A DNA stretch of 64,000 nucleotides from Ramlibacter sp. WS9 (GTDB lineage: Bacteria; Pseudomonadota; Gammaproteobacteria; Burkholderiales; Burkholderiaceae_C), in contig NZ_RKMB01000004.1 of the NCBI RefSeq assembly GCF_003797765.1, forward strand, positions 310,001 through 374,000, given 5' to 3'. Made by a program: the position numbers and the translations under genes. Shown here one piece after another: positions 39,267-42,311 of this stretch. How positions within the stretch are numbered: position 1 is the first letter of the stretch; each line of letters starts with the position of its first letter. The notes beneath the pieces are model-generated. The model saw only the letters and a program-made list of their open reading frames with translations, had not been told where the DNA came from and ran no database searches.

Positions 39267-39283
39267 CACTTCTGGAGGCGCGT

Positions 39284-39532
39284 ATGCCCACCGCATTGAC
39301 CAGCAAGGGTCAGGTCACGATTCCCAAACACATCCGCGATGCCCTGCACCTTGTGCCGGGTACGCCCGTCGAGTTTTCGGTCGCCTCCAGCGGCGAAGTG
39401 GTGTTGCACGCGGCCGCCGCGCCCAAGGGCAAGCGCCGCGCGGGCACGGACCGCTTCGACGCCGTGCGGGGCCGAGCCGACGTCAAATGGCGCACCACTG
39501 ACCTGATGAAGCTTTTGCGCGCGGAAGATTGA
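39284..39532 (+). CDS. AbrB/MazE-fold antitoxin (VapB-type)
   Basis: An 82-residue protein. The N-terminal SpoVT/AbrB-type swapped-hairpin domain (TSKGQVTIPKHIRDAL, residues 5-20) binds DNA. A basic middle and the C-terminal DVKWRTTDLMKLLRAED tail, typical toxin-neutralising helices, follow. ATG at 39284. Its stop overlaps the toxin start (TGATG), a classic toxin-antitoxin arrangement. Confidence 0.88.
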   Translation: MPTALTSKGQVTIPKHIRDALHLVPGTPVEFSVASSGEVVLHAAAAPKGKRRAGTDRFDAVRGRADVKWRTTDLMKLLRAED

Positions 39533-39930
39533 TGTTGCTGGTCGACACCAACGTCCTGGTCGATGTGCTGCAGGACGAGCCGCAGTGGGCTGAGTGGTCG
39601 ATTGGCCAGTTGCGGGCCCAGGCGAAAGTCCATGAGTTGGCCATCAACCCGATCATCTATGCCGAGATGTCCTTGTCGTTCTCGACCATCGAAGGGCTTG
39701 ACGCCGTGGTGACCCAAATGGAGTTGACGGTGCGGGAGATCCCGAAACCGGCCTTGTTCCTGGCCGCCAAAGCCTTCGCTCAATATCGCAGGCGCGGGGG
39801 CAACAAGACACAGGTGTTGCCGGATTTCTTCATTGGGGCGCATGCGGCCGTTCAAGGATGGCCGTTGCTGACGCGTGACGCCAGTCGCTTCAGAACCTAC
39901 TTTCCGAGCTTGGAGGTACTGGCGCCCTGA
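39532..39930 (+). CDS. PIN-domain toxin (VapC-type)
   Basis: A 132-residue PIN-domain ribonuclease. Acidic catalytic residues in LVDTNVLVD (residues 3-11), YAEMS near 45, LPDFFIGAHA near 103 and TRDASRF near 120. VapC toxins cleave tRNA or rRNA when the antitoxin is degraded. Pairs with the AbrB-type antitoxin immediately upstream. Confidence 0.88.
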   Translation: MLLVDTNVLVDVLQDEPQWAEWSIGQLRAQAKVHELAINPIIYAEMSLSFSTIEGLDAVVTQMELTVREIPKPALFLAAKAFAQYRRRGGNKTQVLPDFFIGAHAAVQGWPLLTRDASRFRTYFPSLEVLAP

Positions 39931-39949: not shown

Positions 39950-41008
39950 TCACTCGGTGAACAGCTCGCCCGCACTCTTTGGCGGTGCCACACCCAGGTG
40001 ACGGAACGCCGCCAGCGTGGCGATCCGGCCGCGCGGCGTGCGCTGCAGGTAGCCTTGCTGGATGAGGTACGGCTCGATCACGTCTTCGATGGTGTCTCGC
40101 TCTTCGCCGATGCTCGCAGCGATGTTGTCGAGGCCCACCGGCCCGCCGTCGAAGCGGTGGATCACGCATTCCAGCAGCTTGCGGTCCATGATGTCGAAGC
40201 CCTGCGGGTCGACGTCGAGCATCTTCAGCGCCCTCTGCGCGATGTCCTGCGTGATCTTGCCCGTGCCCTTCACGTCCGCGTAGTCGCGCACCCGGCGCAA
40301 CAGGCGGTTGGCGATGCGCGGCGTGCCGCGTGAGCGCTTTGCGATCTCGACACCGCCCTGCTCGTCCATCGGCGCCTTGAGCAGGCCCGCGCTGCGCGTG
40401 ACGATGCGCGCCAGTTCTTCCGCCGTGTAGAACTCCAGCCGCGCCACGATGCCGAAGCGGTCGCGCAGCGGATTGGTGAGCATGCCGGCGCGCGTCGTGG
40501 CACCGACCAGCGTGAACGGCTGCAAGTCCAGCTTGATCGAACGCGCCGCCGGGCCTTCGCCGATCATGATGTCGATCTGGTAGTCCTCCAGCGCGGGGTA
40601 GAGAATTTCCTCGACCACCGGCGACAGGCGATGGATCTCGTCGATGAAGAGCACGTCGTTCTTCTCGAGATTGGTCAGTAGCGCGGCCAAGTCCTTGGGC
40701 TTCTCGAGCACGGGGCCGGACGTCTGGCGCAGATTCACCCCCAGCTCGTGCGCAATGATGTGCGACAGCGTCGTCTTGCCCAGTCCAGGCGGGCCGAACA
40801 GCAGCACGTGGTCCATCGCCTCGCCGCGCATGCGGGCCGCGCCGATGAAGATTTCCAGCTGTTCGCGCGTCTTGGCCTGGCCGACATATTCGTCGAGCAG
40901 CTTGGGCCGCAACGCGCGCTCGATCGCTTCTTCGTTCGGCGACGCGGGCGCCGCCGACACCACACGCTCCGGTGGCGGCATGTCGAAGTCGTCGGTCTTG
41001 ATGCTCAT
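39950..41008 (-). CDS. ruvB: Holliday junction branch migration ATPase RuvB
   Basis: A 352-residue AAA+ motor that drives RuvA-bound Holliday junctions. Walker [10 protein letters not shown] near residue 64, Walker [10 protein letters not shown] near 112-120, sensor and arginine-finger region [18 protein letters not shown], and a C-terminal winged helix ending [16 protein letters not shown] at 41008. In most relatives ruvB directly follows ruvA; here 727 bp of repeated DNA separates them. Confidence 0.96.
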
Positions 41009-41042
41009 TTGTGGTTGTGCAGCTGCACTCTTTGACCTCGCG

Positions 41043-41297
41043 GCAACGCCGTGCACGGCCGGGCCGCGGCGCGATGGCTACGGCGTCCGGCATCGCTTGC
41101 GTTCGCAAGCTCCTGCCGGATACCCCGCGGTGAACGGTCTTGCGGCCCGCGCGGCATAACTCCCTGCGCTTCGCTCCGGTCAAACAGATGCCGCGAGCAT
41201 GAGACGGTCGCGTCGCAAGCGACGCTGGGCCGCAAGACCGTCCACCGCGGGCGCCTGGGCTTTATTCGCGCCGCGGCCCAGCCATGCACGGCGTTGC
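41043..41297 (+). repeat. structured 255-bp element, copy L (plus orientation)
   Basis: Bounded by a 32-bp terminal inverted repeat (41043-41074 with 41266-41297, 30 of 32 paired). Inside are a hairpin TCCGGCA/TGCCGGA (41086-41092 with 41114-41120) holding an inner GCTTGC/GCAAGC stem, a 24-bp stem 41125-41148 with 41227-41250 (23 paired), and a terminal hairpin GCGTCGC/GCGACGC (41210-41225). Unpaired stretches such as ACTCCCTGCGC and GCCTGGGCTTTATTCGCGCC are shared with copy R. It has no convincing reading frame and no transposase. It could be a structured RNA gene or a MITE-like element. Confidence 0.75.
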
Positions 41298-41391
41298 AGC
41301 GAGATGGTGGCGTGCCAGCGGTGGCGCGCCGATGTTGCAGCAGAAAGGTGAAGCGGTGGCCAACGACCGGTGGCGCGCCAACAAAGTCTCT

Positions 41392-41648
41392 GCAAAGCTG
41401 TGCGTGGGCGGGCTGCGGCGCGAATAAAGCCCAGGCGCTTGCGGCGGGTGACACCGCGACCCAGCACGGCTTCAGCCGTGCGACCGTTTCATGCTCGCGA
41501 AAATTGTCTGACCGGAGCGTAGCGCAGGGAGTTTTTTCGCGCGGGTCGCGGGGTCTCCCGGCGCAAGGGATTCGGCAGGAGCTTGCGATAGCAAGTGATG
41601 CCGAACGCCGTAGCCATCGCGCCGCAGCCCGCCCACGCACAGCTTTGC
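41392..41648 (-). repeat. structured 257-bp element, copy R (minus orientation)
   Basis: Inverted partner of copy L across a 94-bp centre. Its terminal inverted repeat is exact over 32 bp (41392-41423 with 41617-41648). Internal stems occupy the same positions as in copy L but with different bases: TTCGGCA/TGCCGAA (41571-41577 with 41599-41605), a 25-bp stem 41543-41567 with 41438-41462 (22 paired), and hairpin GCACGGCT/AGCCGTGC (41464-41481). Conserved loops and covarying stems suggest that structure is maintained. The 94-bp centre (41298-41391) contains GCGCGCC-type direct repeats and nothing recognisable as a gene. Confidence 0.75.
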
Positions 41649-41684
41649 CGCGCGGCCTACGAATACAAAGACAAGGAGTCATGG

Positions 41685-41705
41685 ATTGCGGATCAAGTCC
41701 GCAAT
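41685..41705. repeat. REP-like hairpin
   Basis: ATTGCGGA-TCAAG-TCCGCAAT, an 8-bp stem with a 5-nt loop, of the widespread proteobacterial form CATTGCGGNTTGANCCGCAAT. It lies just downstream of ruvA, between ruvA and structured copy R, and may act as a message-stabilising hairpin or weak terminator. Confidence 0.6.
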
Positions 41706-41735
41706 GACAGCCAGAAAGCAATTCGGCAACGAAGC

Positions 41736-42311
41736 TCATTTATTGAGCGCCTTCAACGCCAGCTTGATGCCTTCGGACACGCCCACGTCTTTCGGCAAAG
41801 CCTTCAACGAAGCCGCAGCCTCCTTGTCGCTGTAACCCAGCGCCACCAGGGCCTGCAGGATGTCGACCTGCGCATCGCTGCCCGCACTCATAGCCCCGCC
41901 ACTCAAATCAGCGCCGAACTTGCCCTTCAGTTCAAGCAGCAAGCGCTCGGCTGTCTTCTTGCCGATGCCCGGCACCTTGACCAGACGTCCGGCGTCCTGC
42001 GCCGTGACGGCCTGTGCGATGTCTGCCACGCTCATGCCGCTCAGCACCGACAGCGCCGTACGCGGCCCCACGCCGGAGATCTTGATCAACTGCCTGAACG
42101 CTTCGCGCTCGCCGGCGGATGCGAACCCGTACAGAAGCTGCGCGTCTTCACGCACGACCAGGTGCGTGAGCAGCACGACCTTCTCGCCCAGCCCCGGCAG
42201 GTTGTAGAACGTGCTCATGGGCACGTCGACTTCGTAGCCGACGCCGTTGCAGTCCACCAGCACCTGCGGAGGATTCTTGTCGGCCAAGAGGCCCTGGAGA
42301 CGTCCGATCAT
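41736..42311 (-). CDS. ruvA: Holliday junction branch migration protein RuvA
   Basis: A 191-residue protein that binds Holliday junctions as a tetramer and recruits RuvB. N-terminal OB-fold ([20 protein letters not shown]), two helix-hairpin-helix motifs ([37 protein letters not shown]), and a C-terminal RuvB-binding domain ([17 protein letters not shown]). ATG at 42311, only 19 bp after the response-regulator stop. The ruvB gene lies beyond the structured elements. Confidence 0.96.

Follow-up and report, generated by a model that had tools for sequence, protein, structure and literature searches.

What occupies the gap between ruvB and ruvA in Ramlibacter sp. WS9, and does it act as a structured RNA, as a mobile element or as both? 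In the 64,000-nucleotide stretch of this genome that we analysed (the window), ruvA and ruvB lie 723 bp apart with AAATGAGC duplicated, and between them stands a composite of about 615 bp in which two inverted, self-folding units (the L and R halves) surround a spacer. The first-pass annotation had described two inverted copies, at 41043-41297 and 41392-41648, each with its own paired stems; both copies are present there, and every stem that it named is found in the sequence at the position given. The features of the locus are listed below, R1 being a covariance model of the element core.

41003-41010: first copy of an 8-bp direct repeat, GCTCATTT (AAATGAGC on the gene strand), at the ruvB start (from sequence and empty sites)
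41011-41733: segment inserted between ruvA and ruvB, 723 bp, comprising the composite and flanking end sequences (by eye; in the nearest relatives ruvA and ruvB overlap or are a few bp apart)
41043-41297, minus strand (outward-reading, wobble-compatible): L half; R1 match at 41123-41270, minus strand, 170 bits
41043-41074: outer arm of L helix P1, partner 41266-41297 (self-comparison of the window)
41124-41148: first arm of L helix P2, partner 41227-41251 (self-comparison)
41227-41251: second arm of L helix P2 (self-comparison of the window)
41266-41297: inner arm of L helix P1 (self-comparison of the window)
41298-41391: central spacer, 94 bp, with GGTGGCGYGCC-type repeats (from sequence)
41392-41648, plus strand (outward-reading, wobble-compatible): R half; R1 match at 41419-41568, plus strand, 172 bits
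41392-41423: inner arm of R helix P1, partner 41617-41648, 32 of 32 paired (self-comparison)
41429-41462: first arm of the R helix P2 region, partner 41543-41576 (self-comparison)
41543-41576: second arm of the R helix P2 region (self-comparison of the window)
41617-41648: outer arm of R helix P1 (self-comparison of the window)
41685-41705: ATTGCGGATCAAGTCCGCAAT palindrome (TTGCGGATCAAGTCCGCAA type), a separate short repeat inside the inserted segment, which also borders a number of other copies of the element (from sequence)
41734-41741: second copy of the 8-bp direct repeat, at the ruvA stop (from sequence and empty sites)

The two halves resemble each other in inverted orientation (79% over 188 nt and 76% over 86 nt). 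Within each half the terminal repeats pair with one another, at 92% over 38 nt in L and 100% over 32 nt in R, and the long inner stem is paired at 96% of 25 positions in L and 79% of 34 in R. Both halves fold far better than dinucleotide shuffles (z of -10.5 for L and -9.4 for R), with 0 of 100 shuffles as good. Frames for an AbrB-like antitoxin and a PIN-domain-like toxin, recognised from sequence only, adjoin ruvB at about 39280-39930 of the window.

Is it the fold that is maintained? A structure alignment of 48 halves, some from the own genome and some from relatives, gave 84 consensus pairs, of which 44 show double changes, in nine helices per unit of about 255 nt. Among these helices are P1 (32 bp), P2 (23 counted pairs) and the hairpins P3, P4 and P5, while the conserved joins include GAAUAAAGCCCAGG, CAUGCUCGC, UGUUUGA and GAGUU. 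Of the cells, 98.4% are paired, whereas shuffles give 89.2% and slid controls 33-46%, and the 44 double-change pairs compare with 24.7 in shuffles and 4-10 in slid controls; reconstruction on a tree puts the double-change events at 96, or at 94 when strand-neutral pairs are used. At least two Watson-Crick types occur at 11 pairs in the own L halves, at 12 in the own R halves and at 40 among 12 sequences of other genomes, and thus the double changes reflect more than the split between L and R. Covariation, which the first-pass annotation had proposed to check, exceeds every shuffle and every slid control and is present in L halves, in R halves and in other genomes; in its covariation above controls, the element behaves like a structured RNA. 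A protein reading was rejected, as the two long overlapping frames have no Pfam match and the stems covary. The original idea that a fold is kept, with compensatory change preserving the stems, was well founded. The same annotation had also considered that the stems might derive from arm-to-arm gene conversion with no conserved loops; what we found instead is strong conservation of the unpaired blocks, both from copy to copy and in relatives. It needs to be mentioned that an L-type P3 sits in the R half of copy L014 and that some hairpin modules seem to have changed places between halves and copies; such module exchange may account for part of the variation within the genome.

On which strand is the fold selected? 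Where stem pairs mismatch, they remain wobble-compatible chiefly on one strand, which in both halves is the one running outward from the spacer. On this outward strand we counted 58 G-U against 16 A-C events on the tree (p about 1e-6), a bias that stayed unchanged when the structure was derived from the opposite strand. When only pairs common to the folds of both strands are taken, G-U and A-C cells number 20 versus 3 in own L halves, 16 versus 2 in own R halves and 25 versus 12 in the 12 other sequences; the bias is weaker, at 90 versus 42 cells, in 63 matches from other genera that were oriented by the covariance model. Single-sequence energy favours the outward strand in all 37 of the R halves, in 37 of 39 L halves and in 54 of the 63 matches from other genera, the opposite strand being better in 9 of the 63. 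A wobble bias on one strand speaks against arm-to-arm copying being the sole cause and favours selection of a single folded strand, although single-stranded DNA would likewise tolerate G-T better than A-C.

The outward twin arrangement is found again in other genera. All 31 two-hit loci face outward, as do 16 of 16 among those of the L173-L200 loci that were given to the model, a set not chosen for being pairs. Among the matches listed, with own-genome rows left out, 22 of 25 neighbouring R1 pairs face outward, none inward, and three are same-strand repeats (by eye). The gap between halves exceeds 1 kb in 2 of the 31 outward pairs. One outward pair with 1.0 kb between its halves (L208:1513-2532) encloses a RelE match below the Pfam cut-off, another with 1.7 kb (L209:1544-3255) encloses a LysR-type gene, and both enclosed regions are possibly passengers. 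At L214:463-1845 one minus match is followed by three plus matches at a spacing of about 475 bp, which is a tandem array of one half.

The L unit matches many contigs of the own genome, and among the matches listed we examined 40 loci with composites or remnants (L001-L030 and L061-L070). Both outer ends were measured at 30 of them, and at least 20 of these 30 are composites of about 610-650 bp, the rest having one half shortened or being solo halves; a measured end is missing at the other 10 loci, 4 of them at contig ends, and contigs end in the element at L002, L008, L064 and L065. The two copies originally taken as the unit are thus both real, but the true unit is the composite of L, spacer and R that recurs at about 40 loci; likewise, the positions given for the core hold, but a conserved end sequence reaches about 20 bp past the core on both sides. 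Together, 42 own loci (the 40 with L129 and L132) yielded 31 full-length halves of each kind, L and R. Another short palindromic repeat, of the CGCAATCCATG type, stands at 16 of 72 element ends (by eye). Solo forms of about 262-266 bp were set aside as the mobile unit because L029 and L061 carry both outer ends; these two look like deletions between direct repeats.

One own copy, L127, holds an IS110-family transposase (PF02371, PF01548) at 1657-2913, in the J1/2 loop of its R half. The earlier statement that no transposase is present is thus correct for the copy between ruvA and ruvB but does not extend to L127, which an IS110-family insertion sequence interrupts. The end motif of this insertion sequence, GGAGGCGTCCATACCATC, is also found at the matching place in L084 of genome G033. 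According to the 2024 accounts cited here, IS110/IS1111 elements choose their targets by guide RNAs (PMC11187229, PMC11208160). With an insertion sequence of this family in the J1/2 loop of L127, our element resembles the repeats that IS110/IS1111 elements target; the insertion sequence uses the element as a landing site, and nothing points to its moving the element.

Did the composite enter the ruvA-ruvB junction by insertion? A ruvA match was obtained in 37 same-genus relatives, and 29 of the ruvA loci were fetched. None of the 29 contained an R1 match with E <= 0.01, and the orthologous junction, suggested at first pass as a place to look for empty sites, is element-free in all of them; two weak R1 matches (E about 0.08; L102 and L117) lie outside it. 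Both genes were found in 27 of the 29 loci, with a gap of 0-60 bp between BLAST alignment ends in 24 of the 27 and a longer one, filled with other sequence, in three (L104, L110 and L117). In the relatives inspected by eye, the ruvA stop and the ruvB start overlap or nearly touch. The 8-bp repeat flanks the segment at ruvA-ruvB as in transposition; however, a duplication covering at least the 4-bp start/stop overlap would be needed there anyway for both genes to be kept. No clear terminal inverted repeat delimits the inserted segment at this junction.

Three further sites were compared in genomes G033, G035 and G003, in which both flanks were found. The site of copy L012 has no element in any of the three. 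That of L063 is empty in G035 and G003, while G033 has a related element (a partial R1 match of 28.9 bits), and that of L025 is empty in G003, while G035 has a relative of diverged sequence that shares the twin architecture (83 and 68 bits). The 8-bp target duplication is seen at ruvA-ruvB only, the flanks of the other sites being too diverged. Judged by empty orthologous sites, the element behaves as a non-autonomous mobile one, with a related element in one relative each at two of the compared sites. These related elements, together with one locus shared by three genera, fit long retention as well as mobility.

How far does the family extend? The covariance-model search that had been proposed was carried out with R1, which matches many genera of the family. 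With the own genome counted in every tally, there were matches in 42 of 59 same-genus genomes, in 96 of 250 genomes within the family (54 of 126 genera), in 13 of 300 across the order (8 of them outside the family) and in 6 of 299 across the phylum, all six in the same order; the large searches ran with stricter filters, and absences in these counts are not firm. In the phylum draw, kinship names were given for 26 of the 299 genomes, all of the same order. The model was calibrated on little sequence and trained mostly on the own genome and G035, and its E-values are rough. Copies number up to dozens per genome. An exact pattern occurs on five contigs of a Ramlibacter MAG and on one contig of a MAG labelled Stagnimonas. 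A plasmid search with the element of the window gave no match, while L211, from a relative in another genus, had matches in 5 plasmid records (3 from Variovorax, 1 from Comamonas and 1 from Cupriavidus; named hosts Comamonas odontotermitis, Variovorax paradoxus and Cupriavidus sp.) over 7-57% of the query, with no annotated feature; a phage search with L211 gave no match. The repeat also stands between two genes in three genera (L188, L191 and L197) and beside one gene in two genera; from their sequence we take these neighbours to be RND-efflux genes and rsmG, respectively. The RND-efflux locus shared by three genera may reflect long retention or repeated insertion at one place.

At gathering score Rfam gave no match in the window or in 20 loci of relatives, and under permissive thresholds the only matches fell well short of the gathering scores, none of them credible. 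We found no description of the element in the open-licence literature, and it looks like a large structured repeat family absent from the RNA-family catalogue.

The first-pass annotation had offered two readings, a structured RNA not yet described or a non-autonomous mobile element that is recognised by its structure; covariation and empty sites both support this proposal. We lean, with a confidence slightly above even, towards reading the locus as one copy of a non-autonomous multi-copy mobile element that is selected as a folded outward strand, most simply as RNA. Such an element would consist of two diverged copies of one folded unit of about 255 nt in opposite orientation, with the active strands directed outward from the spacer. 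Selection would act on the outward strand in a folded, single-stranded form, most simply as RNA, and we hypothesize that an enzyme supplied in trans recognises this form. Since the halves are inverted, a transcript from either direction would hold one active-sense half at its downstream end, and therefore either orientation would work. Because the L and R stems have diverged, each half would continue to pair within itself and the whole would not collapse into one long unstable palindrome. The element sits mostly downstream of stop codons, where the least harm is expected. No dedicated transposase or reverse transcriptase was found among the best neighbouring frames of 42 loci, in which no family recurred beyond two or three, and no related full-length transposon was seen near these loci. 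The exact matches inspected in an end-motif search were, among those listed, composites, remnants or the IS110-interrupted copy. A more specific scenario, which we consider rather unlikely, is a bacterial SINE-like twin whose folded RNAs ride host read-through transcripts in either orientation and are copied back by a borrowed enzyme; selection would then act on the RNA fold, and in some genomes the halves would flank passenger genes (L208, L209).

The likelihoods that we attach to the rival readings overlap and need not sum to one. It is possible, though we doubt it, that the element serves the host at gene ends like a very large BIME, as a transcript-end RNA that terminates transcription or shields mRNA; this role overlaps with our preferred reading, as an element can be mobile and do this as well. 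Gene context, read from long open frames and not from gene calls, speaks in its favour: the 40 own loci comprise 19 convergent, 12 tandem, 1 divergent and 8 not classified, which places 19 of the 32 classifiable ones between convergent genes, and of the 29 frames on the left that read toward the element, 22 stop 28-76 bp away from its core. The positions at the RND-efflux locus in three genera and beside rsmG in two agree with such a role, and the sense-strand wobble bias points to RNA. At 42 loci of other genomes (41 distinct, as L178 equals L215; five same-genus) the context is tandem in 25, convergent in 13, divergent in 3 and unclassified in 1, so that an excess of convergent sites shows most clearly in the own genome; 78 of 91 rows of matches were used, after 12 weaker antisense matches overlapping stronger ones and the partial L141 were dropped. 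However, patchy presence (96 of 250 genomes) and empty sites have the look of spread by mobility, the half closest to a gene lies antisense to the transcript of that gene, which is the wrong way for a 3' shield, and a consensus scan of 40950-41780 found no intrinsic terminator. That scan found no sigma-70-like promoter either, which tells against two divergent small RNA genes with promoters in the spacer, as does the spacer itself, being GC-rich and more variable between copies than most of the halves; although outward active strands in both halves and in the lineages seen would suit such a pair, we judge it quite improbable.

Outward single-stranded DNA might, on the other hand, be folded and then cleaved by an enzyme of the Y1 or tyrosine-recombinase type, as in REP/RAYT, IS200/IS605 or integron attC systems. 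Strong self-folding and mismatches that are wobble-compatible mainly on one strand agree with this, REPs have been described, in the account cited, with alternating orientation and preserved palindromes (PMC2817692), and the own genome has one Y1 transposase match. We nevertheless regard this DNA hairpin as unlikely, because no copy of the element flanks the Y1 gene (R1 finds nothing in L225, and the best BLAST piece there has 29 nt), Y1 is not enriched in carriers (66 of 96, versus 123 of 154 non-carriers), and conserved internal loops over about 250 nt exceed what a cleavage hairpin needs. As for the absence of any structural selection, with template switching or gene conversion between the arms of a quasi-palindrome producing the pairing, the apparent exchange of hairpin modules between halves and copies speaks for it; but it would give no strand preference, against the 58 G-U and 16 A-C events counted, and the unpaired blocks are conserved among copies and relatives, so that we consider it very improbable indeed.

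Among known repeats, REP/BIME sequences share with the element many extragenic copies, palindromic units in opposite orientation, kept complementarity and a non-autonomous nature, and in its opposite-orientation, extragenic, multi-copy units the element does agree with them. It differs in having a unit of about 255 nt with several helices, conserved loops and one preferred strand. REPs are given as 20-40 bp in the account cited (PMC3733652), and a unit of about 255 nt with nine helices falls, on size, outside a group marked by a 20-40 bp palindromic unit with a GTAG- or CGTC-type tag. A link to a cognate RAYT is not supported: the single Y1 match in the own genome has no copy of the element at its flanks, and there is no positive association in the 250 genomes. 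The Beta-proteobacterial repeat element (BRE), about 90 bp long and reported from Bordetella and from Comamonadaceae such as Polaromonas and Delftia (PMC3110155, Hot et al. 2011), is alike in being multi-copy, mostly intergenic and endowed with mobile features, as that source describes it. Compared by description only, BRE is unlike our element in its length of about 90 bp, in being tandem at some loci and in that the cited description contains no twin outward design; a distant relation is possible. The element is MITE-like in being short, non-coding and multi-copy, with inverted ends and a direct repeat at one insertion, whereas its internal structure, in contrast to MITEs, is conserved in detail by covariation, and no related full-length transposon was seen near the 42 loci.

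What emerges looks like a large structured repeat family, present in 54 of 126 sampled genera of one bacterial family, with no member reaching an Rfam threshold. The element ends contigs, creates spurious reading frames and hosts an IS110-type insertion, and it may shape the transcript ends of many genes. Its outward symmetry and one-strand bias pose the question whether a bacterial repeat can be selected and can spread as a folded single strand without a protein of its own.
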